From contig MKVQ01000017.1 of the NCBI GenBank assembly GCA_001899635.1, forward strand, positions 1-64,000: a DNA stretch of 64,000 nucleotides. Reading direction: 5' to 3'. Positions 7,578 to 64,000 of the stretch are shown here, in pieces. The position numbers were made by a program, and so were the translations under genes. The stretch is from Myxococcales bacterium 68-20 (GTDB taxonomy: Bacteria; Myxococcota_A; Polyangia; Polyangiales; Polyangiaceae). The notes under the pieces are model-generated. The model had not been told where the DNA came from. It searched no databases and saw only the letters and a list, made by a program, of their open reading frames with translations. The stretch's first letter is position 1; each line of letters begins with the position of its first letter.

Positions 7578-8561
7578 GTGCCGGCCATCCTCCGCCTCGC
7601 TGGGTTTCTCATCGCCGGCGCGTGCAGCCTCTTGGCCGCACGCTCGGCGGCCGGAGCGGAGGGCGCGGAGCCGGAGCCCCACGACGGGCTGGCCTATGAG
7701 GCCGTCGGCCGAGGATGCCCGCTGGAGAGCACGTACCGGGCCGAGGCGCGCCAGCGTATGCCCGAGCGGACGGATCGCGCGCGCACGCTTCGGGTGAAGC
7801 TGTCGCCGGTGCCCCGCGGCTTCGAGGGCACGGTCGAAGCGATCGAGATCTCGGCAGGGAGGCCTCATGTCGTGGCCTCGCGCACCGTCGCGGGCACGAC
7901 GTGCGAGGAGGTCGCCGACGCGACTCTGTTGCTCGTCGCGCTCGGCCTCCTCGAAGCGCGCCCTCCTCCGGCTCCGCCGCCGGCGCCTGCGCCCGCGCCG
8001 GAGGCCGCGCCGATCGAGCCGGCGCCCGTCCGTCCGGCCGTCCGGCCCACCTTCCACGTCGCGGGCCTTGCGCTCGCGGCGTCGGGATTCGGACCGGTCG
8101 CCGTCGGGGGCGGAGCGCGCCTCGGCGTCGGGCTCGAGCGGCGCGGCCTCGTCCGACCCGAGCTCCGTCTGGGCGTCGATGTCGTCGGCGAGGCGGAGCT
8201 ACGGAACGCCATCGGCACGGCACGTCGCTCCCTGCTCGCGGGGCGGGTCGACCTCTGCCCGCTCGCGTTCGGAACCCGACCCGTGCTCGCTCGTATCTGC
8301 GCGGCCGGCGCGGTCGGAGAGGTACGTGTGCGCGGCGAGAACGTGGCCTCCCCCCGGGACGAGGGCCGGCTCTACACGGCCGTCGGAGGCCTCCTGCGCG
8401 GCCATGCTCGCCTCGCCGGTGGCCTCGGTGCCGACCTCTCCGTCGGCGTCCTCGCCCCGATCGCGCCACATCGTTTCTTCTTCGAGCCCGACGCGACCTT
8501 GTTCCGACTCGATCGACCGGTACCCTTCGTCGAGGGGGGCCTCTCGTGGTCGATTCCGTGA
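7578..8561 (+). CDS. Secreted protein, possible outer-membrane barrel
   Basis: A 327-residue protein with a signal peptide ending near ARSAAGAEG. An N-terminal domain of about 100 residues is followed by a Pro/Ala linker (near residues 130-155). The C-terminal half has alternating hydrophobic and Gly-rich strands (VGGGARLGVGL, RPELRLGVDVVG, FVEGGLSWSIP) and ends in an aromatic/hydrophobic strand, as outer-membrane barrels do. It starts with GTG. Its stop overlaps a possible GTG start of the ECF sigma gene (GTGA at 8558-8561), which suggests co-translation. The arrangement (surface protein, then sigma factor, then membrane partner) would fit a cell-surface signalling path, but there is no sequence proof. 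No family recognised. Confidence 0.6.
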   Translation: MPAILRLAGFLIAGACSLLAARSAAGAEGAEPEPHDGLAYEAVGRGCPLESTYRAEARQRMPERTDRARTLRVKLSPVPRGFEGTVEAIEISAGRPHVVASRTVAGTTCEEVADATLLLVALGLLEARPPPAPPPAPAPAPEAAPIEPAPVRPAVRPTFHVAGLALAASGFGPVAVGGGARLGVGLERRGLVRPELRLGVDVVGEAELRNAIGTARRSLLAGRVDLCPLAFGTRPVLARICAAGAVGEVRVRGENVASPRDEGRLYTAVGGLLRGHARLAGGLGADLSVGVLAPIAPHRFFFEPDATLFRLDRPVPFVEGGLSWSIP

Positions 8562-8602
8562 TCGCGGCGCGCCCTGGCGCGCATGGTCAGCGAGACACGC
8601 CC

Positions 8603-9211
8603 ATGAGCCCGGGTGCGGCCACCAAGACCGAAGAGCCTCGCGCGCGTCTGGCGCGGCTCGTCGAGGAGTACTTCGACGCGGTCTTTCGCGCCGTAAGGCG
8701 GTTCGGCGCGCCCCCGTCGCTCGCGGACGACGGAGCACAGCAGGTGTTCTTGGTGGTCGCATCGAAGCTCGACACGATCGCTCCGACCAGCGAACGAGCA
8801 TTTCTCTTCGGCACCGCGTTTCGTGTCGCGAAGGAGCTTCGGCGCCGAGCGAGCGACGTGCCACGCAGCGACGACGGGGAGCGGGCCGTCCTCTCACGAG
8901 CGGACTCGTCGCCCGATCTCGAAGAGCTCCTCGATCGAAAGCGGGCGCGCATCGTCCTCGACGAGCTACTCGCCGCCATGCCCGAGGACCTGAGGGCGGC
9001 CTTCGTTCTCTACGAGATCGAAGGCCTGTCGGTGCCCGAGATCGCCGAGGCGCTCGGCCTCCCCCAGGGGACCGCAGCGTCGCGGCTGCGACGCGCACGA
9101 GAATGTTTCGACGAAGGGCTCGCGCGGCACCGGGCGAAGGAGCGCTTTCGCGGTGAGAAGGCTCGAAGCATGGCGAACGAGGCGGCGAACGAGAACGAAG
9201 GAGGTGCGTGA
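8603..9211 (+). CDS. ECF-type RNA polymerase sigma factor
   Basis: A 202-residue sigma-70-family protein. Region 2 is seen as EYFDAVFRAVRRFG followed by DDGAQQVFLVVASKL (residues 20-58). Region 4 is seen as AAFVLYEIEGLSVPEIAEAL with the recognition helix GLPQGTAASRLRRAR (about residues 135-175). No further domain is present, so it is of the extracytoplasmic-function type. The ATG at 8603 is chosen; an in-frame GTG at 8558 overlapping the previous stop would add 15 residues. The next gene starts on its stop codon (TGATG). The recognition-helix region closely resembles that of the partial sigma factor at the right end of the window (PEGTAASRVRRAR). Confidence 0.85.
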   Translation: MSPGAATKTEEPRARLARLVEEYFDAVFRAVRRFGAPPSLADDGAQQVFLVVASKLDTIAPTSERAFLFGTAFRVAKELRRRASDVPRSDDGERAVLSRADSSPDLEELLDRKRARIVLDELLAAMPEDLRAAFVLYEIEGLSVPEIAEALGLPQGTAASRLRRARECFDEGLARHRAKERFRGEKARSMANEAANENEGGA

Positions 9212-9936
9212 TGGACGTCCCGAAGCGAATCGTCGACGACCCCTCCGCCGACTCGGTCGCACGTGCGCTCATCGAGGACGCGCGCGTCGAGACCGCGGGC
9301 CCGGGTGGCAAGGCACGGACGCTCGCCGCCCTCGGCCTCGCCGGCGGGGCCGGATTGGCATCCACCTCCACGGCCTTCGCGGGGCTGAAGGTGCTCGGCG
9401 CCGGCGTGCTCGTCGTGGGCGGCGTCGTGGGCTTGGGTGCATGGATGATGACGCGCGAAGATCCGCCTGCGCCGGTCCATGCCGGCAGCTCGGTCATCGC
9501 GCAACCGCCCGTCGCCCCGAGCATGTCCGTCGTGACTCCGGTGGCCGAGACCGCGCGCACGCCGGACGTCGCTCCGAGGTCCGATGCACCACGCATCGTT
9601 CCGAAGAGCGCACCGCGCGCGCCGGCCGCTCCGGCAGCGTCCGCGTCTTCTGCCGCGCCGAGCCGGCTCGCGGAGGAAGCGCGAAGCCTCGAGGTCGCTC
9701 GTCGCGCGCTCGAGGGGCATCAGGCAAGATCGGCACTCGCCGCGCTCGACCGCTACGAGCGTGATTTTCCGCGCGGAGAGCTACGACCCGAGGCGACGGC
9801 GCTTCGCGTCGAAGCGCTCGCAGCGTCGGGCGACGAGAGCTCCGCGCAAGCGCTGGGGCGCCAGTTCTTGTCTCGATATCCGGGACATCCGGCGGTCCCG
9901 CGTGTGCGTCGTGCGATGGGCGCGACGAATTTCTGA
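9211..9936 (+). CDS. Membrane-anchored sigma partner with TPR-like tail (anti-sigma candidate)
   Basis: A 241-residue protein with a short cytoplasmic N-terminus (about 55 residues), one transmembrane segment (about 59-81, LKVLGAGVLVVGGVVGLGAW), a Pro/Ser/Ala linker, and a helical repeat tail from residue 155 (ARRALEGHQARSALAALDRY, then FLSRYPGHPAVPRVRR) that resembles TPR or YbgF-type tails. Position directly after an ECF sigma gene plus the membrane anchor suggest an anti-sigma or sigma-tethering role; no zinc-binding anti-sigma motif is seen. AAGGAGG at 9198-9204 selects the ATG at 9211 over the GTG at 9208. It is paralogous in plan and tail to the protein at 63081-63887, also directly after a sigma gene. 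Confidence 0.7.
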   Translation: MDVPKRIVDDPSADSVARALIEDARVETAGPGGKARTLAALGLAGGAGLASTSTAFAGLKVLGAGVLVVGGVVGLGAWMMTREDPPAPVHAGSSVIAQPPVAPSMSVVTPVAETARTPDVAPRSDAPRIVPKSAPRAPAAPAASASSAAPSRLAEEARSLEVARRALEGHQARSALAALDRYERDFPRGELRPEATALRVEALAASGDESSAQALGRQFLSRYPGHPAVPRVRRAMGATNF

Positions 9937-10025
9937 TCGACGCGAGGGGTGAACCGCATGGTCGCTCATTCAAGGGCGGCAACGACCGGCCACCCAAGGC
10001 TCGACCTCTTGCTCGGAGATACCCC

Positions 10026-46524: not shown

Positions 46525-49500
46525 TCACTGCTCGAAGCAGTAGAACGCCAGCGAGGAGTTGCAGGGCGCAGTGCCGGTGAACGACCACGACCCGGTCGTC
46601 GACGACGAGATGCCCTGGCCGCCGTACTGGTTACCCACGAAGGCCGTCCAACCGTTGCACGCCACGCTGCCGGAGTACCTGCCGTCGGTGTACGTCGACG
46701 TCCACACGGACCCATCGTACGTCGAGCCGGTCTCGGTGACGTTGATCGGGGCCTCGAGCGTGCCGCTCGTGAGCGCCGTGAAGTTCGCCGCCACCTGAAC
46801 GCCGTCGACGCGCACGTACGGCACCGTCGACCGCTCGAAGCGCGCTGCCGGTTCAGAGGAGTGGGTGTCCGAGATCCACGTCAGGTACTTGCCACCGAGC
46901 GACGCGTTGCGCGCCGCCTCCTGGCAACGAGCATCGGCGCCGAAGACGCCGCTGACCGAACCATGCGAGGTCGCGCTGGTGACGAACGCGAGACGGCGCG
47001 TCGCCGTGCACGTCACAGTCACGTTCGACACGCTCGAGCTCGGCATCGTCCCCGACCCGTTCGTGACGGTACAGGAGCGTCGCGCGGGCTGGGTCACGAC
47101 CGTGACGGAGTACGTCTGCCCCGCGGTGACCGGCGCCGGGAACGCGAACGAGCCGTCCCCCGAGACAATGAGGTCAGCGCCGTTGCCGTTTCGGAGGACG
47201 ACGCGATCGGAGATGCCGGAGACCGAGCCGCCGAGCGTGTGCGAGTCGGGGCTGCAGTTGAGGCCGATGTTGGTGACCGCCGCCGTGGCGTTGCCGTTCG
47301 GGTTGACCACCGAGCACGCCTGACCGGCGGGCTGCGATTGGACGTACACCGAGTAGCTTCCCCCGTGCGTGACCGGCGTGCCGAACGTGAACGCGCCGTC
47401 CGCGTGGACCGTGACCAGGTCGTCACCGTTGCGCAGCACGACCGGGCCCGTGATGCCGGTCGCCGTCCCGCCGATCGGATAGGAGAGCGCCGAGCACGTC
47501 ACGACGATGTCGGAGACCGTCGTGGAGACCACGCCGGAGCCGTTCGACACCGTGCAGGACCTGCCTGCCGGGTACGAGAGCATCGTGATCTCGTAGCTCG
47601 AGCCCTGCGCGACCGGCTGCGCGAACTGGAAGGACCCGTTCGAGCTGATCGTCAGGCTAGTCGTCCCGTTGTTCTGGAGCACGAGGAGGCCGGCGTAACC
47701 GACCATCGTACCGCCGAGCGTGAACATGTTCGTCGAGCAGGAGACGTCGACGTTCGTGACGTTGCCGGCGCCGACCGTACCAGCGCCGCGCGACACGACG
47801 CAGGTCTGGTTCGCGGGCTGCGACTGCACCGCGACGGAGTACGGCAGGGAGAACGGGACCGACGAAGAGAACGTAAACGCTCCGTTCGCCGAGACCGTCA
47901 CCGGGTTGCCGCCGTTGTTGGTCAGGACCACGGTCCCGGTGAGGCCGCTCACGCTGCCTCCGACGGTGTACGGGTTATCGGTGCAGGTGACGCCGATGTT
48001 CGTGACGTTCCCGGCGCCGACCGTGCCGCTGCCGTTCGACACCGTACAGGTCTGCCCCGCCGGGTTCGTCCGAACCGTGACCGCGTACGCGGAGTTGAAC
48101 CTCACGGACGAGCCGAAGGTGAACGAGCCGTTCTGGTTCACCGTGAGGTCGGTGCCGTTGTTGGTGAGAACGACGCTCCCCTTGAGGCCGCTCGCGGTGC
48201 CGCCGAGCGTGTAGGAGTTCGAGGTGCACGAGATGGACACGTTGCCGATGTCCGCGGCGCCCATCAGACCCGTACCGTTGCTGACGGTACACGCCTGACC
48301 GGCCGGCTGCGTGAGCACCGAGACCGCGACGGTGCCGCGGTACGGCACCTTCGTCGGGAAGGTGAACGCTCCGTTTTGCGAGATCGTGATGTTGTTGCCG
48401 CCGTCATTTCGGAGCGTGACGCTGCCGATCAGGCCGCTCACGGTCCCGCCGAGGTTGTACGTCTGATTCGTGCAAGCGACCGCGACGTTCGTGACGTTCG
48501 CGTTCGGCACGGTCCCGGACGCGTTGGTGACCGCGCAGCTCTGCCCCGTGGGCTGCGAGCTGACCGTGACAGCGTAGGGCCTGCTCTGCGCGACGGTCTG
48601 CGAGAAGGTGAACGCTCCGTTCTGAGTGACGACGCGCGCGTCCCCGCCGTTGTTCTGGAGGGTGATGCTCCCGCCCGTCTCGAGCCCGGTGAGCGTGCCG
48701 CCAACGGTGTGAGCGCCGCCGCAGATGCCGCCCAAGCAGACGCCAGTCAGGCAGTCCGAGCCCACGCTGCACGCCTGTCCTGCCGCGCATCGAGCGCACG
48801 ACGACGTGCCGCCACAGTCGATGCCGGTCTCGCCGCCGTTCTTCACCTGATCGTCGCACCGGGCCGGTCGGCAAACCTTGTTGCCCCCTTCGGCGGCGCA
48901 GATCGAGCTCTCGCAGTCGGCGGCGACGTTGCAGCGCTTCGCAGCATCGCACTTCTTGCAAGAGCCGCCGCAGTCGACGTCGGTCTCGTTCTGGTTCACG
49001 ATGCGGTCGTCGCACGTCGGCGCCGGGATCGGCGCGCATCGACCGGCGGTGCACTGCAGGCCCGCGACGCAGTCGCTGTTCTGCGTGCACGCGAGGCCGA
49101 CCGAGCAGCGGTAGCAGCCCGTGTTGCCACCGCAGTCGCGATCGGTCTCACCGCCGGAGCGGATGCGGTCCTCGCACGAGGTCGCCACGCAGTGCGTCCC
49201 GTTCGAGAAGCCGGACGCGCAGTCGGAGGCGACGCTGCTTGCCGTGCCGGTGGGGCACTTGCCGCAGCTCCCGCCGCAGTCGGCGCCGGTCTCGTTGCCG
49301 TTCCGAAGGCCGTCGGTGCAGCTCGTCGCCACGCAGAGTCCGGCCTTGCTACAGAAGCCGGACGCGCAGTCCGTGCCCACGCGGCAGGTCTGGTTCAGCG
49401 CGCACTTGAGCGTGCACGAACCACCGCAGTCGACGCCGGTCTCGTCCTTGTCGCGCACGCCGTTGACGCATGAATCGACGCGGCACACGCCCGCGATGCA

Positions 49501-51453
49501 GGTGGCCTGTCCCGCACAGTCGACCGTCGACTTGCAGCGCTTGTCGACCGCGCACGAGTTGCATGCGCCGCCGCCGCAATCGGCGTCGGTCTCGTTTCCG
49601 TCCTTGCCGCCGTTCTGGCAGGTCGGAAGGCAGTAGCCGAGCCCGCCGTTCTCGAACTCCCACTTCTTCTCGAGCAGCGGGAACGACTTGTTGATGGGCT
49701 CGAGCGGGGGCGTGTCCCAGCCGAGGTCCTGAAGATCCTTGGAGAAGCTCGAACCGGGAGCCTGGAGACGGCCGCCGATCTGAAGGCCGACGTTGGCTGC
49801 GAGCTCGAGGGACACCTCACCGTCCGGGGTGCTCGAGGTGGCCTTACCCTCGCAGGACGACGCGTACTCGGCCTTGGCGACGAGGCTGCCGCGAATGCCG
49901 GCGTACATGCCGACGGTGTCGTAAGCGAAGACGTTGACTCGCGGGACGAGACCGCAGTGGGCGACGATCTCGCCGCCACCGAGGACCTGGACCTCCTTGA
50001 TGTTCGCTTCGGTGCCCTGCGGCGCGACCGGAACGGAGGTGTTGCCGTTCTCGTACTCCGCCCTGAACTTGAACGTGCGCGCGGTGGCCCAGCGGAGCTT
50101 GCCTTTGACCGACGCCTTCGCTTCGAAGCCGCAGACGAGGTTGACCTGCAGGGTGCTCGTGATGACGACGGGAACCGGCCCCGCCATGAAGGCCTTCGTC
50201 TTCGGGCTCGAGAGGAAGAGGACCTTCGTGAAGGTCCCCTCCGGCTTCATGTCCTTGTCGCCGGTAAGGTGCTCCTTGTTGGCAGCCCAGACCTCCTGCG
50301 CGTAGTTGACGTTCTTCTCGACGTTCTCGATGAACTCCTTGCTTCCCTTCACGAAGGAGTTCGGGCCGACCTGGACGGCCCTGACGCCGGCCTCGAGGTC
50401 GACGTCGAGCGCGACGTCGGTCTCGACGCGCGAGTCGATGTTCATCCACACCTTGAGCGGAGGCGCGTCCCGGTTGATCGGGTTCGGGATGCGCGCGCCG
50501 ACCTGGAACCCCGGGTTGAGCAGCGCCGAGGTCGTGACCGACGCCTGTCCCTTGACGAACAGCTCGATGCCGATGTCTTTCCGCTTGATCGTCTTCTTGA
50601 ACTCCATGTCCTTGAAGAGCGGGAGCGTCGACTTCGGCCACGACATGTCGGAGTCGAGGCCGACCGCGTCCTCGAACGACGCAGGCGTGATCGCGGTCGT
50701 GACGTCGAGCGCAGCCTCCTTCACGGCCGAGACGCCATTGGACACCGCGTTCCCGACCGCCTTCGCGGCGCCACTCACCGCGTTGACGAAGGACTTGCAG
50801 CAAAAGCCGCTGCCCGGCTGCGTCGGGTCACCCTCGCTGCTGGAGAACGACGGATCGTCCTTCAGCGAGTGAATGCCCTCGGGCCAGTACATCGGCTCGG
50901 TCTGGACGTAGAGGTGGTCCGCGAGCCACTTCTTGTCGAGCTTGGACACGTCGACGTCGACGCCGTCGTTGTCCGCTCGAACCTGGAACTCGCCCTCGGC
51001 GATGTCCTGAAGGCCGAGGCTGTCGGTCTTCACGATGATCCGGCCGTCCTTCTCGATCACCTCGACGACGCGGCGCGCGTAGCCGAACGGGTTCGAGCCG
51101 AGGCCACCTTCACCGGGGGCCGCCGCGACGATCTTGCCGGGCTGCCAGTGGCGGACGCTCTCGGCCTTGTCGGCCGGGAACTCGAGCGAGTCGTCGGTGA
51201 CGATCGCGTGGTCTTGCTCCTCTTTCGTCGCCGCCTCGACGCCCGGAACCGGCGTGAGGTTGACGTAGTCCGGCTCGAAGGAGGGCTCCCACTTGACCGC
51301 GGCGAGCGGGTTTTCGGGCGCCTTCTCCTCCGGGCTGCTCGAGCACGCGCTGAACCCGACAAGCGCGCCGCCCGCGACCAGCGTGAGCGCCAGGCTGCGC
51401 CGCAGGCGGTGCCCTGCCGCAGAATGTAATCCTCGCATCTTCATCCCACGCAT
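46525..51453 (-). CDS. Giant modular surface lipoprotein with Cys-rich repeats, seven beta repeats and DUF1554-like end
   Basis: A 1642-residue predicted lipoprotein (VGFSAC). In order: a unique N-terminal region of about 600 residues with beta-rich segments; a Cys-rich region with six repeats containing (D/G)xDCGG(S/G/N/T)xxC, roughly 605-900; seven tandem beta repeats of about 81 residues, each with (V/L/I)GG(T/S)xxG, a NGxFxF turn and one Cys pair (CxVxNxxG...VxC), roughly 905-1480; and a C-terminal DUF1554-like domain (GVFGADARCQEAARNASLGG and YCFEQ at the end). The plan suggests an adhesin or surface fibre. ATG at 51453 is chosen: AAGGAG lies 10 nt upstream; GTG 51462 is too close to it. 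No catalytic motif. Confidence 0.85.
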   Translation of the reverse strand: MRGMKMRGLHSAAGHRLRRSLALTLVAGGALVGFSACSSSPEEKAPENPLAAVKWEPSFEPDYVNLTPVPGVEAATKEEQDHAIVTDDSLEFPADKAESVRHWQPGKIVAAAPGEGGLGSNPFGYARRVVEVIEKDGRIIVKTDSLGLQDIAEGEFQVRADNDGVDVDVSKLDKKWLADHLYVQTEPMYWPEGIHSLKDDPSFSSSEGDPTQPGSGFCCKSFVNAVSGAAKAVGNAVSNGVSAVKEAALDVTTAITPASFEDAVGLDSDMSWPKSTLPLFKDMEFKKTIKRKDIGIELFVKGQASVTTSALLNPGFQVGARIPNPINRDAPPLKVWMNIDSRVETDVALDVDLEAGVRAVQVGPNSFVKGSKEFIENVEKNVNYAQEVWAANKEHLTGDKDMKPEGTFTKVLFLSSPKTKAFMAGPVPVVITSTLQVNLVCGFEAKASVKGKLRWATARTFKFRAEYENGNTSVPVAPQGTEANIKEVQVLGGGEIVAHCGLVPRVNVFAYDTVGMYAGIRGSLVAKAEYASSCEGKATSSTPDGEVSLELAANVGLQIGGRLQAPGSSFSKDLQDLGWDTPPLEPINKSFPLLEKKWEFENGGLGYCLPTCQNGGKDGNETDADCGGGACNSCAVDKRCKSTVDCAGQATCIAGVCRVDSCVNGVRDKDETGVDCGGSCTLKCALNQTCRVGTDCASGFCSKAGLCVATSCTDGLRNGNETGADCGGSCGKCPTGTASSVASDCASGFSNGTHCVATSCEDRIRSGGETDRDCGGNTGCYRCSVGLACTQNSDCVAGLQCTAGRCAPIPAPTCDDRIVNQNETDVDCGGSCKKCDAAKRCNVAADCESSICAAEGGNKVCRPARCDDQVKNGGETGIDCGGTSSCARCAAGQACSVGSDCLTGVCLGGICGGAHTVGGTLTGLETGGSITLQNNGGDARVVTQNGAFTFSQTVAQSRPYAVTVSSQPTGQSCAVTNASGTVPNANVTNVAVACTNQTYNLGGTVSGLIGSVTLRNDGGNNITISQNGAFTFPTKVPYRGTVAVSVLTQPAGQACTVSNGTGLMGAADIGNVSISCTSNSYTLGGTASGLKGSVVLTNNGTDLTVNQNGSFTFGSSVRFNSAYAVTVRTNPAGQTCTVSNGSGTVGAGNVTNIGVTCTDNPYTVGGSVSGLTGTVVLTNNGGNPVTVSANGAFTFSSSVPFSLPYSVAVQSQPANQTCVVSRGAGTVGAGNVTNVDVSCSTNMFTLGGTMVGYAGLLVLQNNGTTSLTISSNGSFQFAQPVAQGSSYEITMLSYPAGRSCTVSNGSGVVSTTVSDIVVTCSALSYPIGGTATGITGPVVLRNGDDLVTVHADGAFTFGTPVTHGGSYSVYVQSQPAGQACSVVNPNGNATAAVTNIGLNCSPDSHTLGGSVSGISDRVVLRNGNGADLIVSGDGSFAFPAPVTAGQTYSVTVVTQPARRSCTVTNGSGTMPSSSVSNVTVTCTATRRLAFVTSATSHGSVSGVFGADARCQEAARNASLGGKYLTWISDTHSSEPAARFERSTVPYVRVDGVQVAANFTALTSGTLEAPINVTETGSTYDGSVWTSTYTDGRYSGSVACNGWTAFVGNQYGGQGISSSTTGSWSFTGTAPCNSSLAFYCFEQ

Positions 51454-51487
51454 CCGACGCACGCTCCTTGTTCCCCTCGATCGACTC

Positions 51488-56075: not shown

Positions 56076-57845
56076 TCACTGGATCGAGATCAGCGGCGTA
56101 TCGACGAGCTTCCGGAGCGCCATGCCGCCGGGATAGGCGTAGCTCGCCGCGGTTGCCCAGCCCCAGATCGTGGCCGTGAACGGCCCCTCGCTCTTCATGC
56201 GGTGAAGCCCCGTCTGACAGACCTTGTCGCCGAACGCCTGACCGGGCCCGCCGTCGCGCTGTAGATCGACGCGCACGAACTCGTACTCGCCGCGCGTCCC
56301 GATCGGGGTCCAGCCCTCGAGGGTGCCGGCGCACTCGAGCCAGACGTCCTCGAACTTGTCCCGCTGCTTGCCGCGGATGACGACGAGCGAAGTCTCCTCG
56401 TAGGTCGGGTCCGCGTAGAACGAATACGAGCTCCGCCACTGCCCCGCGGGAACGACGTTGACGAACTCCGGATCCCCGCGGCCTGCCATATCCGGACTAC
56501 CGTAGTAGCCCCCCTGACACCCGTGCATGTAGGCGGCCATGTAGATCGGGTGCGCGGCATCTTGCGTCCGCACGACGAACGGCACGTTGACGCCGACGGG
56601 GAACGTCACGACGTCGCCCGCGTTCATCTCCGTCGGCGCGCCGGGGGGGATCACCGGATCGTAGTCGAGACGCGTGCCGTCCTTCGCGGCGACGATGCGG
56701 TACGGCATCAGCTCGTGCGGCGACGACGCGCGCTGGCGATAGCCAACGCCGACGTACTCGGAGCCCCACTGCTCGAATGACGGGATCTGCTGCCAGAGCA
56801 TGTCGCACGCCCCTGCGGTGATCGGGACGTACGCGCACGAGTTCCCACCGAAAATGGTCGTGGGCTTGTTCGAAAGAACGATGCTCCCTACGAGCTCGTC
56901 CGTCTGATGGATTTGAAAGTACTGCCCGCTGTCGATCGAGTACTTGAGCGGTGTGTTGGCAGGGCCGCCTTTGACGTCGAGACCGTTCTGAAGCGCCTTG
57001 TTGGGGAGGATCGTGATCTCCGTGCCGTCCTGCGACGCGACGATCTGCGAAGCCGGATTCCCCGCGCTGGCCTCCCACCCGTCGATGAGGACGTGCTCCT
57101 TGGCCCACGTGACGACGGGCATGAGAAGGGTCGCCGCCGGCTTGAAGCTATTCGCCCCGCCGAAGGGGAACATGGCCACCGCTGAAACGGGAGCCGATGC
57201 AGTCAAATGGAGCGACGTGCCGATGCCCGTTCTTCTGAGCGCAAACCCCTCCGTGGCAGGAACGACGCCGTCGGGACAGTAGACCGGCGGGGAGCCCCCG
57301 AAGCTCCCTGGAGAGTTCTCCCTCGGTCCAGCGATGAACAGGACGACGCTCTCCCCGGGCGGGATGGGGCCTGCGTGCTCGATGAGCGTGGCATCGCCGG
57401 GGTTCGTCCGCCAGACGGCCTTCGACAGGTCGAGAGCTTCACCTCCTTTGTCGAGGGCGATCTCCACGGGCTGCGCCGAGGTGTTGACGACGAACGCCGC
57501 GAGGCACCCGTCGTCGTTGGACGCGAAGTTCTGGACGTAGAACTCACAGCCGTCCGACCTCGAGTCCGCCGCGGCGGCGGCGCAAGGCTCCTGGCACTTG
57601 GCGGCGCCGCACGCCTGGGTATCCGGACACCTCTCGACGACCGCACCATCGCACGACTGAATGACGGAGCGCCCGTCGAGCGAGCATTGGAGCGGACAGC
57701 TGCCCGCATCTTCGTCCGCCAGCGGCCCCACGAGGTCGGGCGCCTTGACGAACCCATCGCGATCGCTCGCGCATGCCCCGGCGACGGCGAGGAGCGCAAA
57801 GCCGGCCATCGAGAGGGCCACCGGCGTGGCCAAACGTCTGGTCAT
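56076..57845 (-). CDS. IgGFc-binding-domain lipoprotein
   Basis: A 589-residue predicted lipoprotein (AGACAS, Cys25). Residues 45-100 are Cys-rich; the rest is an IgGFc-binding-like domain as found in many myxobacterial surface proteins: SAVAMFPFGGANSF, KEHVLIDGWEASAG, IVASQDGTEITILPNKAL, GQYFQIHQTDELVGSIVLSN and PTTIFGGNSCAYVP. The family name comes from mammalian proteins; bacterial function is probably adhesion or ligand binding. Its ATG overlaps the stop of the RCC1 gene (57842-57845). It is the last of the seven coupled genes led by an ECF sigma factor. Confidence 0.85.
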   Translation of the reverse strand: MTRRLATPVALSMAGFALLAVAGACASDRDGFVKAPDLVGPLADEDAGSCPLQCSLDGRSVIQSCDGAVVERCPDTQACGAAKCQEPCAAAAADSRSDGCEFYVQNFASNDDGCLAAFVVNTSAQPVEIALDKGGEALDLSKAVWRTNPGDATLIEHAGPIPPGESVVLFIAGPRENSPGSFGGSPPVYCPDGVVPATEGFALRRTGIGTSLHLTASAPVSAVAMFPFGGANSFKPAATLLMPVVTWAKEHVLIDGWEASAGNPASQIVASQDGTEITILPNKALQNGLDVKGGPANTPLKYSIDSGQYFQIHQTDELVGSIVLSNKPTTIFGGNSCAYVPITAGACDMLWQQIPSFEQWGSEYVGVGYRQRASSPHELMPYRIVAAKDGTRLDYDPVIPPGAPTEMNAGDVVTFPVGVNVPFVVRTQDAAHPIYMAAYMHGCQGGYYGSPDMAGRGDPEFVNVVPAGQWRSSYSFYADPTYEETSLVVIRGKQRDKFEDVWLECAGTLEGWTPIGTRGEYEFVRVDLQRDGGPGQAFGDKVCQTGLHRMKSEGPFTATIWGWATAASYAYPGGMALRKLVDTPLISIQ

Positions 57846-59182
57846 GGAAGCACCACCTCTGTCGGAGCCAAGCTCTTGCCTCGATTCAGCCCGTTTCCGA
57901 GCTGACCGCTATAGTTGCTCCCCCAGCAGTACACTTTGCCGTTCGTGAGCAGCGCGCACGTCGTGTTGACCGTGGTCTTCACTTGCGCGACGAGCGCCTT
58001 CTCGGGGAGACCGACGACCATCGCGGCACGCGTGACGTACTCCTCGGTGCCGGTCCCTGCCTGCCCGCTCTCGTTGAAGCCCCAGCAGTACACGCTTCCC
58101 GAGTCGCCCACGGCGCACCACCGGTACGGCTTGAAGTCCCGTATTTTGGTGTCGTCGGAGAGGAGGTAACCCTCCGAACGCGTCGTGGCGATCTGAACGA
58201 GCGGCTCCGGCGCAGCGGCAGGTTCGGGAAGCGCCCGATCGATCACGGTACCTTTGAATGGCGTGACGCGCGCGCCCCAGCAGTACCCGATTCCGTTCGC
58301 GACCGCGCACGTGTTGTCGTACGCGGAGTCGATCTGCGTGACCCTCGCGAGCGAGACGAGCTGAGGGAGCGGATCGGGAAAGCTGGGCGAGACGCGCCCG
58401 ATGCCCGGGTTGCCACCCCAGCTCAGGACCGATCCATCCGCGCGAAGGACGAACGTAGCGTTGCCCACCTCCAACGCGGACGCCGCGGCTCCGTTGGGGA
58501 GCGCCGCGCGCTTCGGCTCGCCGGTGAACGTCTCGGTCAGCGGTCCGAGCTGGCCGAGCGCGTTGCTCCCCCAGCATTGGACATCGCCGCCGACGACGGC
58601 GCACGCGGTCTCGAAGCTTCGCGCCACCTTCGTCACGGGAGGGAGATCGAGCTTCACCGGCGTAGTGTGGGCCGCCTTTGCGCCCCCGCCGTCTTCGGCC
58701 CACGAGACGGGGCCCGTTCCCCAGCACCACACGCCGCCGCTCTTGTCGACGGCACACGTGTGGTCGAGCGACGCGATGTTCGAGAGCCCCACCACCTTGG
58801 CCGCCGTCGAGCTGTCGACGAGCGTCGTGCCCTCGCCCTCACCGCGCCCGAGCTGGCCGGCGCCGTTCGCGCCCCAGCAGGCCACGGTGCCATCGTCGAG
58901 CAAGACGCAGAAGCCCTCGCCCTTGTCCTCGACGCTTCTGCCCAGGGTCGTCACGAGCGCGGTCGCGCACGGGCTCGACTCGCAGACGACGGGCAGCGGC
59001 TGGCCGTCGTAGATGCCAGCGTCGCGGCCGCTCGAATCGACCGCCGCGTCGGTCGGTTCCATCGTATCCGCCCCGGCGTCCGTGAGCGGCGGTTCGCTCG
59101 GCTCATCGCCGCTCGAGCAGCTCACCGCCGCCGCGGCAGCGGCGAGGACGGAGAACGCAACGAGCCGCCGTGCATTTAGCAC
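57842..59182 (-). CDS. RCC1-repeat lipoprotein
   Basis: A 446-residue predicted lipoprotein (AVSC, Cys22) with a Pro/Asp/Thr linker to about residue 60. Seven RCC1-like repeats follow, most marked by CWG (VACWGANGAGQLG, VWCWGTG, VQCWGSNALGQLG, VLSWGGN, YCWGAR, VYCWGFNESGQAG, VYCWGSNYSGQLG), a closed seven-blade propeller. The GTG at 59182 is chosen because it gives a clean lipoprotein signal (LNARRLVAFSVLA); ATG at 59254 would overlap the previous gene and add a charged extension. It is separated from that gene by 46 bp, the only non-overlapping junction in the operon. Confidence 0.85.
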   Translation of the reverse strand: MLNARRLVAFSVLAAAAAAVSCSSGDEPSEPPLTDAGADTMEPTDAAVDSSGRDAGIYDGQPLPVVCESSPCATALVTTLGRSVEDKGEGFCVLLDDGTVACWGANGAGQLGRGEGEGTTLVDSSTAAKVVGLSNIASLDHTCAVDKSGGVWCWGTGPVSWAEDGGGAKAAHTTPVKLDLPPVTKVARSFETACAVVGGDVQCWGSNALGQLGPLTETFTGEPKRAALPNGAAASALEVGNATFVLRADGSVLSWGGNPGIGRVSPSFPDPLPQLVSLARVTQIDSAYDNTCAVANGIGYCWGARVTPFKGTVIDRALPEPAAAPEPLVQIATTRSEGYLLSDDTKIRDFKPYRWCAVGDSGSVYCWGFNESGQAGTGTEEYVTRAAMVVGLPEKALVAQVKTTVNTTCALLTNGKVYCWGSNYSGQLGNGLNRGKSLAPTEVVLP

Positions 59183-59228
59183 GGCGACATCTACGGTCTT
59201 CGACTCGAATAGCCCCGAGCGGCGCGGA

Positions 59229-60680
59229 TCAAGGAGTCTTCTTGTGAAGTGCATAGCGATTTCCGACTGCCCAGAGGTTTTTCGCCGACGTCCCACGCAC
59301 CTGATAGAGCGGCTCATCCAAATAGCGACCCTTCATCGCCACACTCGTCTTCTCGACCAAGGCGCCATAGCCCGTCCCCGCCTGCGCGAACGACTCGGGC
59401 GTCCCGATGCCGAGGCCGTCGTTCCACGCGGCCGGCTTGATCTCCGAACCGAAGACGATTCCATGACCGCTGAACCACAAGCGATCGTCCATGCGGACGA
59501 CGGAGTGGACCAGTGGGGGCAAAAGCAGCCCGGTGGGAGGACGGACCCCGCTCACCCAGTTGTAACGCGCGACGTTCGACGCGGTGTCGACGTAGTACCA
59601 CTCGAGAGCGTTCCCGACGATCACCAGGGCTGCGCCCGGAGCAACTGGGGCGACCGCCGTTGCCCAGCCGCGCGTCTGCCATGGAATTTCGAACACGCCA
59701 TAGCCCGGAATCTCGAGCTTGACACTCGGTTGGATGGCGCCTGGCTTGGTCGCGCAGCTACCGCTCGCGTAGGTGAACTCGAGGACAACCGAGTAGCCCG
59801 ACGGTGTTCGACGGAAGAGCGTCGGACATCCCTTGTAGCCCTCCACTGCGTCGGTCGGGCCATGTCCGCCGACGAACCAGATTTCATCGCTGCTCGCCGG
59901 CGACGCATTGAAGATGTAGAAGGACTCGTCGGCCGTGGAGCTCGGGTCCTCCGTGACGAACTCCGAGCCCCACGTCGGCGGCCCGCCGCCTTCGCTCGTG
60001 CGGCGGAAGATTCGGTTGCCGTACCACGCGTAGACGTCGTCGGCCGACGTTCCCGTGACGCCGAGTGCCGTTGCGTAACGCGTCACGGTCCCATTGGGTA
60101 CCTCCACGCTCCAGGCACGTCCCGGATCGCGATTGGCATACGCGGGCCCTTCGTACGGAAGGCGCGCCGACTCCCACGTAAACGCCGCCGACGGGTCCAC
60201 GCGCTTCCCGTGGTAGACGATCCCGGGCGCCGTCGTGAAGTACAGCTCGTTCTCGCTCGGCGCATACATCTTGCCGGCGTACTGACCGCCGCCGTAGGCG
60301 TTCTGCGAGTTGTCGTCGATGTACGACCAGGCCTGCGTCGCCTCCGTCCACTCGAGCACTTTCGTCCCGAGCGTGTCGCTCTCGGCGACCGCGAACGCGC
60401 GATCGACGAACGGCCAGACGTCGATGAACGTCAGCTTCGGATCGGGGAGCTCCGTCTCACACCAACCGTGGTCGTTGCAGGCCGACCAGACCGGTGCGGA
60501 CGCGTCCGGTCTCGACGTCGCGTCGACCTCTTCCGGGGACGCATCGTCGACGATCGTGGATCCTCCATCGGGAACGGGGTCGAGCGAGGCGCCTTCCCCA
60601 TCCGAGGTCGCGCAGGCGGCTAGCGTAGCCAGGGCAGCCAGCGTCGCCGTCGACCATGCGAGCAAAATTCTGCGTCTCAT
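59229..60680 (-). CDS. Operon lipoprotein, possible beta propeller
   Basis: A 483-residue predicted lipoprotein (TLAAC, Cys23) followed by an Asp/Pro/Ser linker. The body is strand-rich with aromatic repeats (MYAPSENELYFTTAPGIVYH, VTGTSADDVYAWYGNRIFRR, NASPASSDEIWFVGGHG, VRGTSAKNLWAVGNRYALHK). The recurring (G/S)(T/S)S(A/S)xDxWxVG phrase is that of myxobacterial propeller-like lipoproteins and links it to the gene before it. No enzyme motif. ATG at 60680 overlaps the stop of that gene by four nt. Confidence 0.75.
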   Translation of the reverse strand: MRRRILLAWSTATLAALATLAACATSDGEGASLDPVPDGGSTIVDDASPEEVDATSRPDASAPVWSACNDHGWCETELPDPKLTFIDVWPFVDRAFAVAESDTLGTKVLEWTEATQAWSYIDDNSQNAYGGGQYAGKMYAPSENELYFTTAPGIVYHGKRVDPSAAFTWESARLPYEGPAYANRDPGRAWSVEVPNGTVTRYATALGVTGTSADDVYAWYGNRIFRRTSEGGGPPTWGSEFVTEDPSSTADESFYIFNASPASSDEIWFVGGHGPTDAVEGYKGCPTLFRRTPSGYSVVLEFTYASGSCATKPGAIQPSVKLEIPGYGVFEIPWQTRGWATAVAPVAPGAALVIVGNALEWYYVDTASNVARYNWVSGVRPPTGLLLPPLVHSVVRMDDRLWFSGHGIVFGSEIKPAAWNDGLGIGTPESFAQAGTGYGALVEKTSVAMKGRYLDEPLYQVRGTSAKNLWAVGNRYALHKKTP

Positions 60681-61900
60681 CGCTTGCCTCCGACGGATAG
60701 GAGCACCCCTTGGCCGCCAATCCACACTTTCCCAGGCTCTGGCACCCACACCGAGAGAAGCTCCGGTCGACGACGCCCGAGCCCGGCCACCTTCACCCGC
60801 GACCACGTCGTTCCGTCGTAGTGAAGGACCACGCCTCGGTCACCGACCGCCCAGACGTCGGACGAAGACGAGCCCGCGACGGCGTAGAGGTGCTCGTGCG
60901 TCGGCACCTCCATCACCTGCCAACCGAACGTCGCCCCCACGTTGTGGATGACCAAGCCGCGCGCTCCGACGGCCCACGCCTCCGTATCCGAGACCGCCCA
61001 CACGCCGTTCAGCGTCGACCACGTGAGCGGGTTCATCACCTCCACTGTCGGCGATTCGCTGTCGGCGCCTATGATTCGAATCGCGGCGCCCTTCTCGCCG
61101 ACGCCCCACACGACGTTCGGAGATGCTCCGTCGAGGCCTCGGAGCCACTTGCACGGCAGACTGCTGCAGACCGACGTGGGCACCCCCGCCTTTGGCGTCA
61201 GCGTCGTGCCGTCCGCGTCGATGCGCCAGACTTCGGTGTTCGTGGCGACCCACATCGTGCTGCCGCCGGTCCGGCCCCACCCCGCGGTGACGTAGCGGCT
61301 GGCGCCCGGCGGCGCGGTCAGCTTGCCTCGGTTGGCCCAGCCGTCCGGCGACGGATCGCCGTCGCCCGCGCCGAGGCCACGCGTGAACACGCGATCGAGG
61401 GTGCCGAACGTGAGCTCTCCACCGTTCGCGAGCCAGACGTAGCCGAGCGATTCACGGGTGCCGAGATCGGCGGCCTTCCACGCGGTCCCGTCGAAGTGCG
61501 CGGCCGTACCGACCGTCCCGACCAGCCACGCGTCCGTCGTCGAGCGAGCGCGAATCGTGTGGAGGCGCGTGCGCCAGTCGACTCCCGCAGACGGATCGGC
61601 GCCGAAGAGGCCGCTCGGGCAGAGCGCCCCCGGCTCACACTCGGCCGGAAAGAACTCGCAATCGCCTTCCGCGCACGAACCTCCGCCGTCTGCTCCGTCC
61701 GCTCCACCCGCGTCGGGCTCGGGAACGACGGTCTCCGTCTTCTCGGGATCGAGATTGACGTTCTCATCGACCGACGCGCACGCGGCGACGAACGAGCCGG
61801 CCAGAGCGCAGGCGAAGCCCGCGCCGGAGACCAACATGTAACGCCATGCGCTCGCTGTGCTCGCCCCTTGTCCCAATCGCGCTCGAGTACGAGCGCTCAT
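60677..61900 (-). CDS. Propeller-like lipoprotein of the sigma operon
   Basis: A 407-residue predicted lipoprotein: basic N-terminus, hydrophobic segment, lipobox VAAC, then an Asp/Gly-rich linker and a short Cys cluster (CAEGDCEFFPAECEPGALC). The body repeats a strand phrase (STTDAWLVGTVGTAAHFDGT, SPNVVWGVGEKGAAIRI, SDTEAWAVGARGLVIH, SSSDVWAVGDRGVVLHYDGT), indicating a beta propeller of about six or seven blades. No catalytic residues. The ATG at 61900 overlaps the stop of the Cys-rich lipoprotein gene (61897-61900). Confidence 0.78.
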   Translation of the reverse strand: MSARTRARLGQGASTASAWRYMLVSGAGFACALAGSFVAACASVDENVNLDPEKTETVVPEPDAGGADGADGGGSCAEGDCEFFPAECEPGALCPSGLFGADPSAGVDWRTRLHTIRARSTTDAWLVGTVGTAAHFDGTAWKAADLGTRESLGYVWLANGGELTFGTLDRVFTRGLGAGDGDPSPDGWANRGKLTAPPGASRYVTAGWGRTGGSTMWVATNTEVWRIDADGTTLTPKAGVPTSVCSSLPCKWLRGLDGASPNVVWGVGEKGAAIRIIGADSESPTVEVMNPLTWSTLNGVWAVSDTEAWAVGARGLVIHNVGATFGWQVMEVPTHEHLYAVAGSSSSDVWAVGDRGVVLHYDGTTWSRVKVAGLGRRRPELLSVWVPEPGKVWIGGQGVLLSVGGKR

Positions 61901-63084
61901 CGGGTCACCTCGCCCGCGTCGGCCTGATCGCACGGCTCGACCACGCATTTGCCCGCCACGCAGGCTTGACCCATCTTCAGATCACAGGTGATCCCGCATC
62001 CACCGCAGTTCCGCGGATCGCTCCTCGTGTCGATTTCGCATCCGTCGGATTGCGAACCGTTGCAGTCCGCCGCGCCATTCTGACAGCGGAGGACGCACTT
62101 TCCGAAGTCGCACGCCACCCTCTGGCTGTAGCCAACGCCAAGGTATGGGCAGCTCACGCCGCAAGCACCGCAGTTGGAAGCGCTGCTGCTGACGTCGACG
62201 CAGTATCCCTCTGGGAGGCCGTGCTTCTCATCACCCGTTTGGCAGAACGTCAGCCCCTCGTCGCACATGCACGACGGTTGGCCCATGGCATCGACGACGC
62301 ACTTCTGCCCTGCACCACACTTGTTGCCGCAGTAACCGCAGTTGTCGTCCGTGAAGGTCGACGTCTCGCAGCCATTCTCGAGTTTTCCGTCGCAGTCGGC
62401 GAAGCCGCCTTCGCACTTGAACTTGCCGCACTGGCTCGAAAGGCAGCCGTAGTACATGTTCGCGTACTGCGGGGCGTCCGGCCCTCCGGTCGGATCGCAA
62501 GCATTGTCGCAAGCGCCGCAATTGGCGTCGTTGGCGCGCACGTCCGTGCACAGCCCACAGTCGAGCTGGCCCGGAGGACATCCGCATCCGACCTCCTTGA
62601 AGAGGTCGTCCCGCCACTGGCACCTCTCCCCCACGGCACAGGCCACGCCGCACGCACCGCAGTTGGCCGGATCGCGGACGTCGCTCTCGCATCCATTGTC
62701 GATGAGGCCATCACAATCTTTCGCACCAAAGGCGCATTCCAACTTGCAGGCGCCCTCGTTGCAGAAGAAGCTCTCCGCCCCCGTGCCCGGTGGGCAGGCC
62801 ATTCCACACCCACCGCAGTTTCTCGAGTCGGCGAGGATGTTGGTGTCGCACGGGAAGCGCGAGTCCGGACACGTCGTCCATCCCGGAGGGCACTGGGACG
62901 ACGGGCAGTACGAGATGAGCCCGAGGCCGGCTTCCGGCGTGACGGCGCCGCTGTCCACCTCGCCGAAGGCCGCTGGCGCCGACGCGTCGGGTAGCGTGCC
63001 GATCACGTTCGTGTCGACGCCACACGAAGCGACGAGCGCCGCGCTGAGCAGCGCCGCGACGATGACTCTACCTATGCTTCTCAT
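61897..63084 (-). CDS. Cys-rich lipoprotein of sigma cassette B
   Basis: A 395-residue predicted lipoprotein (LVASC, Cys21) with more than forty cysteines. Repeats carry CDGxxxNGCExD...(N/D)CGxCGxxC, for example LIDNGCESDVRDPANCGACG, KLENGCETSTFTDDNCGYCG and QSDGCEIDTRSDPRNCGGCG, about one per 45-50 residues. Such modules are common in secreted myxobacterial proteins and are presumably disulfide-bonded. It occupies the same place after the sigma partner gene as the Cys-rich protein at 10026. Its ATG overlaps the stop of the partner gene by four nt. Confidence 0.82.
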   Translation of the reverse strand: MRSIGRVIVAALLSAALVASCGVDTNVIGTLPDASAPAAFGEVDSGAVTPEAGLGLISYCPSSQCPPGWTTCPDSRFPCDTNILADSRNCGGCGMACPPGTGAESFFCNEGACKLECAFGAKDCDGLIDNGCESDVRDPANCGACGVACAVGERCQWRDDLFKEVGCGCPPGQLDCGLCTDVRANDANCGACDNACDPTGGPDAPQYANMYYGCLSSQCGKFKCEGGFADCDGKLENGCETSTFTDDNCGYCGNKCGAGQKCVVDAMGQPSCMCDEGLTFCQTGDEKHGLPEGYCVDVSSSASNCGACGVSCPYLGVGYSQRVACDFGKCVLRCQNGAADCNGSQSDGCEIDTRSDPRNCGGCGITCDLKMGQACVAGKCVVEPCDQADAGEVTR

Positions 63085-63887
63085 GGGGACGTCTTCCTCT
63101 GGACGAGGACCTTCATTCGGCCGGCCTGCGGACTATTCGGATAGCGAGCGATGAACGTCTCTGCTTCGGTCCGCGCTTCGTCGAAGTGACCTGCGGCGAG
63201 GAGTACGTCGATGCGCATCGCCTTCGCTTCGGGTAGCAGTGCTCCGTTCGGGAAGCGCTTCTCGTACTGCGTGAGGATCGAGCGTGCATCCTCGGCACGC
63301 CCCGCCGCGAGCGCAGCCCGCGCCTCCCGCAGGAGTGCCAGCTCGAGCGCGAATTCGTCGGTGGGCGACACACCGGCGCCCGTCGCCGTCGTCTTCAGCG
63401 TAGTCCTGGTGCTGGCGACGCCCCGCTGCCCCGGCGCGTCGGCGGAAGCAGGCGCTTCGCTCGGAAGCGCATGGATGTCGATCCCTTCGTCGCCTGTTGG
63501 TCCGCTCGCGGGCGGACGCTCCGCAGCCTCGGCGGAGGTCTCCGTCGGCGGAAACGCGCGCTCTGGAGTCGGTGTAATCATTGCGCTCGGTGGCGTGGGC
63601 TTCGAGTCGGGATCCGAGACCAGCTGCCGTCCCTCTTCGACGGCGAGAGCCCCGACACAGAACACGGCGCAGACGAGCGCAGCTTTGGCAGCGGTCACGA
63701 GCGCCGGAGATCGGCTCTCAGTCCCGGAGGCGAGGGGCGGGGACGCCTCCGGAGTCGCCGCCTTCAGGCGCGAGAGCGCATCGTGCACGAGCGCGGGCGC
63801 CGGCGCCTCGTTCCGCGCGGCGCGTACCAGCTCGTCGATCCTGTCGGCCTGCGTTTCGTCCACGTTCTTGCTGTTCGGTCCGCTCAC
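63081..63887 (-). CDS. Membrane-anchored sigma partner with TPR-like tail (cassette B)
   Basis: A 268-residue protein with a cytoplasmic N-terminus of about 70 residues, one transmembrane segment (LVTAAKAALVCAVFCVGALA), a Pro/Ser/Thr/Ala linker, and a helical tail (LALLREARAALAAGRAEDAR, LTQYEKRFPNGALLPEAKAM, FIARYPNSPQAGRMKVLVQ). The tail parallels that of the protein at 9211, including the RYP(G/N) turn before the last helix. The start is GTG at 63887, overlapping the sigma stop as GTGA. It is an anti-sigma candidate by position; no ZAS-type zinc motif is present. Confidence 0.72.
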   Translation of the reverse strand: MSGPNSKNVDETQADRIDELVRAARNEAPAPALVHDALSRLKAATPEASPPLASGTESRSPALVTAAKAALVCAVFCVGALAVEEGRQLVSDPDSKPTPPSAMITPTPERAFPPTETSAEAAERPPASGPTGDEGIDIHALPSEAPASADAPGQRGVASTRTTLKTTATGAGVSPTDEFALELALLREARAALAAGRAEDARSILTQYEKRFPNGALLPEAKAMRIDVLLAAGHFDEARTEAETFIARYPNSPQAGRMKVLVQRKTSP

Positions 63888-64000
63888 GGGGAGGTCCCTT
63901 TCGCAGTGCGCTCGATCTCGGCGAGTGCGCGCGCAAACTCTTCGCGCGCGCGGCGAACGCGAGAGGCCGCCGTGCCCTCCGGGATCCCGAGATGCGATGC
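63884..64000 (-). CDS. ECF sigma factor, C-terminal part (cut by window end)
   Basis: Only the last 38 codons are in the window: ASHLGIPEGTAASRVRRARE is the recognition helix of sigma region 4, followed by a short basic tail. It matches the same part of the sigma factor at 8603 (GLPQGTAASRLRRARE). Its TGA overlaps the GTG of the partner gene. The N-terminal region 2 must lie to the right of position 64000. Confidence 0.8.
   Translation of the reverse strand, partial: ASHLGIPEGTAASRVRRAREEFARALAEIERTAKGTSP

Follow-up and report, generated by a model that had tools for sequence, protein, structure and literature searches.

Gene organization at the locus

The window analysed here, the 64,000-nt stretch comprising positions 1-64000 of contig C17 in the 11.9-Mb genome (52 contigs) of Myxococcales bacterium 68-20, ends in an operon, designated unit A, in which an extracytoplasmic function (ECF) sigma factor gene precedes the genes for a membrane protein and five lipoproteins (Table 1). 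The window boundary cuts the operon inside the sigma gene, SIG, and the remaining part was read from the adjoining C17 sequence beyond position 64000. An eighth gene, BAR, was located 80 nt upstream of SIG, beyond the window end; it was missed in the preliminary description of this DNA because the window stops within SIG. BAR, SIG and TPR are referred to below as the head, and CYS, P1, P2, RCC1 and IgG (the IgGFc-binding gene) as the cassette. The five consecutive lipoproteins correspond to those originally described (Cys-rich, two propellers, RCC1 and IgGFc-binding); for P1 and P2, no Pfam family scored above cut-off. The score of the last of these against IgGFc_binding (PF17517), 327.7 bits with a curated cut-off of 25.6, places it within that family.

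Table 1. Features of unit A and of a second head in the window (positions are those of the window).
Feature	Coordinates	Strand	Evidence
SIG, ECF sigma factor, 203 aa, head	63884..64000 in window; whole gene C17:63884-64495	-	Sigma70_r2 2.6e-09; Sigma70_r4_2 3.5e-13
TPR, anti-sigma-like single-pass membrane protein (predicted), head	63081..63887	-	Pfam TPR_6 5.4e-08; AlphaFold model
CYS, Cys-rich STIG1-type lipoprotein, chimeric gene	61897..63084	-	Pfam Stig1 5.5e-08; correlations by alignment window; nearest-neighbour matrix
Head/cassette joint in CYS post-lipobox linker, ~residues 39-58	62911..62970	-	correlations; alignment; swapped units
P1, beta-propeller-like lipoprotein, cassette	60677..61900	-	weak PSII_BNR 0.056, below cut-off; alignment
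P2, lipoprotein related to P1, cassette	59229..60680	-	alignment; profile cross-match with P1
RCC1-repeat lipoprotein, cassette	57842..59254	-	RCC1_2 7.5e-27, six stretches
IgGFc_binding-family lipoprotein, last gene of cassette	56076..57845	-	PF17517 8.6e-98
Second BAR-SIG-TPR head, without five-gene cassette	7578..9936	+	BAR and TPR profiles; sigma domains

Location of starts and stops bore out the 4-nt overlaps previously reported at 63884-63887, 63081-63084, 61897-61900, 60677-60680 and 57842-57845. The sixth junction in unit A, P2/RCC1, is a 26-nt overlap (59229-59254), and hence all six junctions overlap. Four eight-gene units follow one another head to tail, with unit A (56076-65697) as the first and then B (66297-75731), C (75957-85403) and D (85622-95127). 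All four share the same cassette junctions (4, 4, 26 and 4 nt); among them, identity is 44-87% for the five lipoproteins but only 20-40% for BAR, SIG and TPR.

Copy number within the genome

The locus had been described as a single operon, a view that did not survive inspection of the whole genome, where about 125 paralogous units were found. PF17517 had 141 matches in the genome, 128 of them above 250 bits. Of the 141, 138 were typed and three fragments were omitted; the ten weakest, none above 250 bits, stayed outside the fetched regions. The 124 strong matches outside units A-D fell into 122 regions, of which 120 were analysed, C49:197171-207771 and C51:2304-12904 being left out though both contain BAR and TPR matches. 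These regions and C17:1-103800 were annotated with profiles built from units A-D; P1 and P2 were assigned by order because their profiles cross-match. With a unit defined by at least three lipoprotein genes, 125 units were counted, a lower bound since at least one of the weak matches outside the fetched regions (C42:143505) has a head 7-9 kb upstream. SIG was identified in 115 units, TPR in 111 and BAR in 100, and all eight genes stood in the strict order BAR-SIG-TPR-CYS-P1-P2-RCC1-IgG in 87. Together the units cover 1.135 Mb, or 9.5% of the genome. At least 87 of the 138 typed PF17517 matches were preceded on their own strand, at a distance of 3-14 kb, by a sigma-region-2 match; among the sigma matches listed, the control placements, downstream on any strand and upstream on the opposite strand, gave 23/138 and 3/138, respectively.

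Some of the BAR genes missing from units were located past the fetched ends, divergently oriented, or downstream of IgG. BAR lies directly downstream of IgG in four units (C48:186419, C48:254514, C48:687869 and C43:185204) and is divergent from SIG in two (C3:11391 and C44:108618); thus a BAR gene that has moved still accompanies its unit. On contigs C9, C14, C4, C43, C42, C2 and C1, PF17517 matches of a weaker class (~135-250 bits) were seen, a class that also has members in relatives; C42:143505 and a pair on C9 have BAR and TPR matches upstream.

The overlapping junctions recur among the paralogous units. A start codon was present at the 4-nt-overlap spot of SIG/TPR in 92/111, of CYS/P1 in 114/119, of P1/P2 in 110/121, of RCC1/IgG in 79/122 and of TPR/CYS in 39/111, and for P2/RCC1 a start codon stood at the 4-nt spot in 36/119 units and at the 26-nt spot in 60/119. 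Neighbouring in-frame spots carried start codons at just 2-6%. These counts record that a start codon is there, which does not in itself prove its use; the overlapping junctions are not due to chance.

Head and cassette as separate evolutionary modules

Module statistics were computed for the 90 of 125 units with all eight genes in view; as longest-open-reading-frame starts were often over-long, alignment columns with less than 50% occupancy were dropped. Pairwise identities correlated within the head (r 0.72-0.75; SIG/TPR 0.73) and within the cassette (r 0.87-0.94; P1/IgG 0.94), and head genes correlated with cassette genes at only r 0.01-0.11. The nearest unit was the same by SIG and TPR in 39/90, by BAR and TPR in 52/90, by IgG and RCC1 in 54/90 and by IgG and P1 in 49/90, and by SIG and IgG in only 2/90. 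In the 25 unit pairs with IgG identity above 0.78, which share units and so are not independent, SIG identity was 0.23-0.38, with a background median of 0.31. Tandem neighbours (12 pairs) had median identities of 0.63 for IgG and 0.31 for SIG, and heads are on average more diverged than cassettes. The operon therefore consists of two evolutionary modules, a regulatory head and a surface cassette. Exchange seems mostly to take in the entire cassette (P1 and IgG are coupled at r = 0.94), an outcome not expected of ordinary short-tract gene conversion.

These results bear on the proposal that a fixed-ratio set of surface proteins under one sigma factor and its membrane partner constitutes one surface complex or a contact-dependent system. 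Sigma factor and lipoproteins do not make a constant pair, heads and cassettes being shuffled. Unlinked lipoproteins in other places, which would have argued against a joint function, did not materialize; the five genes evolve as a block with conserved order, as one surface complex would lead one to expect, and their products probably form such a complex. Contact dependence gained no support.

At least seven BAR+TPR pairs, compared by coordinates, had no PF17517 match within 14 kb downstream (C17:7572, C1:30078, C36:48406, C40:173159, C43:74312, C14:153994 and C27:147834), and the head thus exists also apart from this cassette. The first of these is the second head of the window (BAR profile, C17:7572-8555; TPR profile, C17:9211-9927), with no PF17517 match near.

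The joint inside CYS

The transition between the modules was localized within CYS, the first lipoprotein gene, by correlations along the alignment of 96 units. Columns 1-45 correlated with SIG at r 0.19-0.30 and with IgG at 0.04-0.05. Columns 41-65 were mixed (0.10 with SIG, 0.38 with IgG). Beginning at the conserved YCPS..CP block, the correlation with IgG was 0.80 in the first window of columns and then 0.27-0.80, and that with SIG was at most 0.07. The nearest unit by columns 1-45 was that of head genes in 21-24/90 and of cassette genes in 3-6/90; from column 60, it was that of cassette genes in 43-49/90 and of head genes in 4-5/90. The joint directly precedes the conserved block YCPS..CP.G..TCP.SRFPCD, so that signal peptide and linker track the head and the mature protein tracks the cassette. 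CYS is therefore a chimera of a head signal peptide and a cassette body.

At the 3' edge, the similarity between the DNA of close cassettes fell at the IgG stop codon in 12 of 14 pairs; in the other two it continued for ~70-100 nt and for at least 200 nt. Around the joint, among the 58 of 123 CYS genes with the anchor motif, a 41-mer was common to 3 of 1653 pairs and a 55-mer to none; at the IgG end, a 41-mer was common to 14 of 7750 pairs and a 55-mer to 3. Misassembly as the source of the pairings was judged unlikely, since hardly any long exact k-mers are common around the joint.

Distribution and swapped units in related genomes

The survey comprised 144 genomes, the source genome (G000) and 143 relatives. 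The source genome belongs to the genus of metagenome-assembled genomes (MAGs) deposited as Labilithrix, among them Labilithrix sp. ACE_MYX5 (G003) and ACE_MYX7 (G006). First-look PF17517 candidates numbered 144 in the source genome, 47 in G003, 17 in G006 and at most 22 in any other. Full scoring gave 46, 17, 9 and 9 matches in G003, G006, G009 and G011, with 36, 11, 3 and 4 over 250 bits, respectively. In the P1 search, which scored up to 13 candidates per genome of the relatives, E values below 1e-30 were found only in G000, G003 and G006 among the matches listed; those listed elsewhere were partial. A more distant cassette (CYS, propellers, RCC1 and IgG) occurs in a fourth MAG, Labilithrix sp. 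ACE_MYX8 (locus L165). Among the genomes searched, the expansion is therefore largely confined to this genus. A search of openly licensed PMC literature found no description of this operon family.

Annotation of 29 loci from related genomes, a number of which are overlapping records of one place, revealed both intact and swapped units. L252 was intact relative to unit C33_66173 (SIG 92%, IgG 92%), with no switch of parent along the DNA. Other intact units were L237, L250, L253 and L158 (BAR 77%, IgG 89%), in the last of which SIG was not detected. SIG identity in intact units of two species was 79-92%. In L244, the head was nearest that of C6_130617 (SIG 73%, BAR 60%) and the cassette was that of C16_404399 (IgG 90%; DNA 84-99% in 150-nt bins). 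In L157, the head was that of C40_523373 (SIG 81%, TPR 76%) and the cassette that of the unit A clade (P1 81%, IgG 79%). Along the DNA of both L157 and L244, the change of parent falls inside the initial ~300 nt of CYS. L251 was ambiguous and several other loci had no close parent; two clear swaps were thus counted, and no rate was derived. IgGFc remnants resembling the unit A cassette, one with stop codons, precede BAR of L157 (G003:C290 near 29163) and possibly represent a scar of the swap.

Selection and the region upstream of BAR

Median ratios of nonsynonymous to synonymous substitution (dN/dS) by gene were 0.33-0.48 for the 20 closest cassette pairs and 0.22-0.47 for 12-15 close head pairs, which demonstrates purifying selection on the genes of both modules. 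Windows in which nonsynonymous exceeded synonymous polymorphism (pN>pS) lay mostly in seemingly over-long open-reading-frame starts; beyond these, two overlapping windows in CYS were near 1.

Nine cross-species pairs were aligned upstream of BAR and seven, involving six source-genome units, were chosen for measurement, omitting C33_66173/L252, with 89% identity over the whole length, and C43_625217/L250, whose alignment was poor. In 7/7, the 50 nt before BAR were 54-86% identical, compared with 37-48% further upstream. The trinucleotide TAG occurred in 18/83 and 12/83 units in the two 15-nt bins closest to BAR, versus 2-9 in other bins. These patterns are suggestive of a promoter directly before BAR in each unit.

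Predicted properties of the encoded proteins

SIG matched the Sigma70_r2 and Sigma70_r4 families only, plus a helix-turn-helix match below cut-off, as is expected of an ECF sigma factor, and scored 81.2 bits against TIGR02937 (cut-off 42.9).

The structural model of BAR (mean predicted local distance difference test score, pLDDT, 83) contains a signal peptide, a periplasmic alpha/beta domain (27-124), a disordered linker and a barrel (193-370) in which eight long strands were counted. The barrel aligned with NspA, OmpA and OmpW (Z 16-17), and BAR is thus predicted to be an OmpA/OmpW-class eight-strand outer-membrane barrel with an added periplasmic domain. No Pfam family was recognized among 61 BAR members, apart from one match at 0.0038 in one member, and no TonB-receptor family was found in them. 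Residues 25-126 of the BAR model could be aligned (Z 9.1) to one chain of 5kew, the VtrA/VtrC bile-salt sensor complex, which is only a lead towards a sensor role.

The AlphaFold model of TPR (mean pLDDT 73) predicted two N-terminal helices, a transmembrane helix at ~61-85, a long linker and a C-terminal tetratricopeptide repeat domain (175-264), and 98/111 TPR paralogues contain a transmembrane-like 19-mer. This anti-sigma-like topology agrees with the proposal that the product is the membrane partner of the sigma factor. The closest resemblance of the repeat domain, a weak one, was to YbgF and BamD (best E 0.0017), and a Foldseek search with the TPR model gave no match at E 0.001 or better.

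A lipobox-like site following a hydrophobic core was present in 78/123 CYS, 102/121 P1, 99/121 P2, 103/122 RCC1 and 109/125 IgG sequences; the corresponding counts for the comparison genes BAR and TPR were 10/99 and 9/111. CYS resembles MXAN_6577-like cysteine-rich proteins (NF041328) and STIG1, with matches at 1.8e-23 and 5.5e-08, but falls below the NCBIfam cut-off for NF041328 (83 versus 100 bits) and here belongs to a fixed five-gene block.

Other features of the window

The second head is followed by a gene for a 217-aa lipoprotein-like product without a Pfam family (head and gene together, 7578-10679, +). Some kb downstream of unit A, a 1645-aa lipoprotein-like protein is encoded at 46525-51462 (-), with repeated Cys-rich segments, the repeats scoring slightly under the DUF4369 cut-off. 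A CRISPR-like array at 102-2225 contains 29 copies of a nearly invariant ~36-nt core at a spacing of 71-76 nt, and the intervening sequences differ.

Discussion

On balance, we favour the view that this operon belongs to a combinatorial repertoire, spread over the whole genome, of surface complexes under sigma control, in which heads have been re-paired with cassettes. More tentatively, the repertoire may be a modular receptor-effector system occupying about one-tenth of the genome, with more than 100 outer-membrane sigma switches recombined with five-protein complexes at one in-gene joint; as part of the same tentative reading, such combinatorial recognition could be regarded by analogy as a bacterial counterpart of the joining of variable to effector segments. 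The head would most likely act as a surface-to-sigma switch. BAR would sense an outside cue, its periplasmic domain would contact TPR, and TPR would then release SIG, which would transcribe its own unit from a promoter directly before BAR and so bring about display of the five-lipoprotein complex at the surface. We infer a role in recognition or uptake, each unit answering a different cue. Outputs would be re-paired with inputs by homologous recombination between cassettes, confined within the limits of their common DNA; as re-pairing occurs at a fixed joint in the first lipoprotein gene, outputs are re-wired and neither block is broken.

Several observations weigh against this interpretation or restrict it. 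Head and cassette are not wholly independent, and a weak association remains: clade-level mutual information between them was 1.03 versus 0.86 +/- 0.05 after permutation (reached in 0/1000), the 65 pairs with SIG identity above 0.6 had somewhat closer cassettes (median IgG identity 0.55 versus 0.41), and the SIG-IgG (r 0.062) and TPR-IgG (r 0.096) correlations were reached by 10/500 and 1/500 permutations, respectively. The nearest units of cassette genes agreed in only 43-55/90, and some smaller exchange inside the cassette is therefore possible. In the TPR protein of unit A, Pfam sequence searches recognized TPR-type families only, with no anti-sigma domain and no FecR. The footprint before BAR is suggestive only, because the alignment was anchored by adjoining coding sequence. 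Neither a motif search in 98 units, which returned codon-bias patterns, nor k-mer counts in 83 units, which returned only an excess of GTAC and TAG, identified a single common promoter motif upstream of BAR, and the cross-species footprints had no single consensus. In two clades of six cassettes, no clear sign was detected of the positive selection that an arms race over recognition could produce. The contamination of the genome was estimated at 4.2%.

FecIRA-type cell-surface signalling combines an ECF sigma factor, a single-pass anti-sigma factor and an outer-membrane receptor. The present locus resembles it in uniting an outer-membrane protein, a membrane partner and an ECF sigma factor, with a likely flow of signal from surface to sigma. 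ECF sigma genes are coupled to a cognate anti-sigma factor, for which TPR is a candidate: it can overlap SIG by 4 nt in 92/111 units and co-varies with it (r 0.73). The Fec receptor is, however, a TonB-dependent protein with a plug and a large barrel, and BAR is a predicted eight-strand barrel with an N-terminal periplasmic domain; the anti-sigma factor there is of the FecR type, whereas the partner here has tetratricopeptide repeats; and, unlike FecIRA, the head precedes five lipoprotein genes and exists in more than 100 copies. Among variable surface-antigen repertoires, trypanosome VSG and Borrelia vlsE are likewise large paralogous sets reshaped by recombination, and the decoupling of head and cassette and the cross-species swaps display such reshaping here. 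In contrast to VSG and vlsE, almost all copies here carry their own sigma factor, most look complete and five-gene blocks are re-paired; no single expression site is known.

The likeness to the Bacteroides ECF/anti-sigma/SusCD loci, also many paralogous sigma-headed operons for surface lipoproteins, leads to the alternative that the units are signal-specific loci for uptake of nutrients or prey polymers, the head sensing a substrate and the cassette binding it. The grouping of outer-membrane protein, ECF sigma factor, membrane partner and lipoproteins in one operon, with many paralogues, would suit this alternative, which is compatible with the wide wording of our own. Polysaccharide utilization loci of the Bacteroides type contain SusC/SusD and carbohydrate-active enzymes, but family searches of unit A detected neither SusC/SusD nor a TonB-dependent receptor nor an enzyme domain, and none of these in BAR; the predicted barrel is of the OmpA/OmpW class rather than a large import channel; and output swaps between sensors would break substrate matching. 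Shuffling of head and cassette at one joint is a further difference from the Bacteroides loci, and the copies here are, to our knowledge, more numerous than in any ECF/SusCD locus family. We regard this alternative as improbable. Switching of the coat resembling antigenic variation, in which mutually exclusive or bistable sigma units and recombination would present new surface combinations to phages, grazers or competitors, is improbable. It would draw on the very large repertoire, the recombination between units and the own sigma factor of each, as well as on positive autoregulation, which most ECF operons are reported to show (PMC8103513); yet complete units are the rule (87/125 by strict order) and truncated copies few (at least three PF17517 fragments), unlike an archive of silent donors.

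Neutral or selfish expansion, with copies spread by duplication, cassettes homogenized by gene conversion and pairings of no selected benefit, could account for the sharply different numbers of PF17517 matches above 250 bits in congeners (128, 36, 11, 4 and 3). Such an origin is quite improbable given that median dN/dS was below 0.5 in every gene tested and that heads diversify yet order and coupling are kept. The average divergence of heads, which exceeds that of cassettes, might also invite an explanation without shuffling, whereby much faster evolution of heads erases the similarity between heads of sister units. This was rejected as extremely improbable, since the sister by cassette had a median rank by SIG of 45/89, as at random, and L157 is an orthologous head on a different cassette. 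Heads also match strongly elsewhere, with other cassettes (SIG up to 0.80), and SIG stays highly conserved in the intact cross-species units.

If the favoured interpretation is correct, this is an unusually large family of sigma-headed operons for one genome, a genome-wide scale that was the main fact and that a window-sized view concealed. Among the publications consulted, the nearest figure for sigma factor number is the 109 of a Sorangium genome (PMC3696898). The family would constitute a natural experiment in re-wiring outputs to inputs, in which more than 100 ECF sigma factors, presumably without cross-talk, each stand before a related surface complex. It would make testable how ECF orthogonality persists at such scale, whether whole blocks encoding surface complexes can be swapped between sensors, and what myxobacteria recognize with such repertoires.

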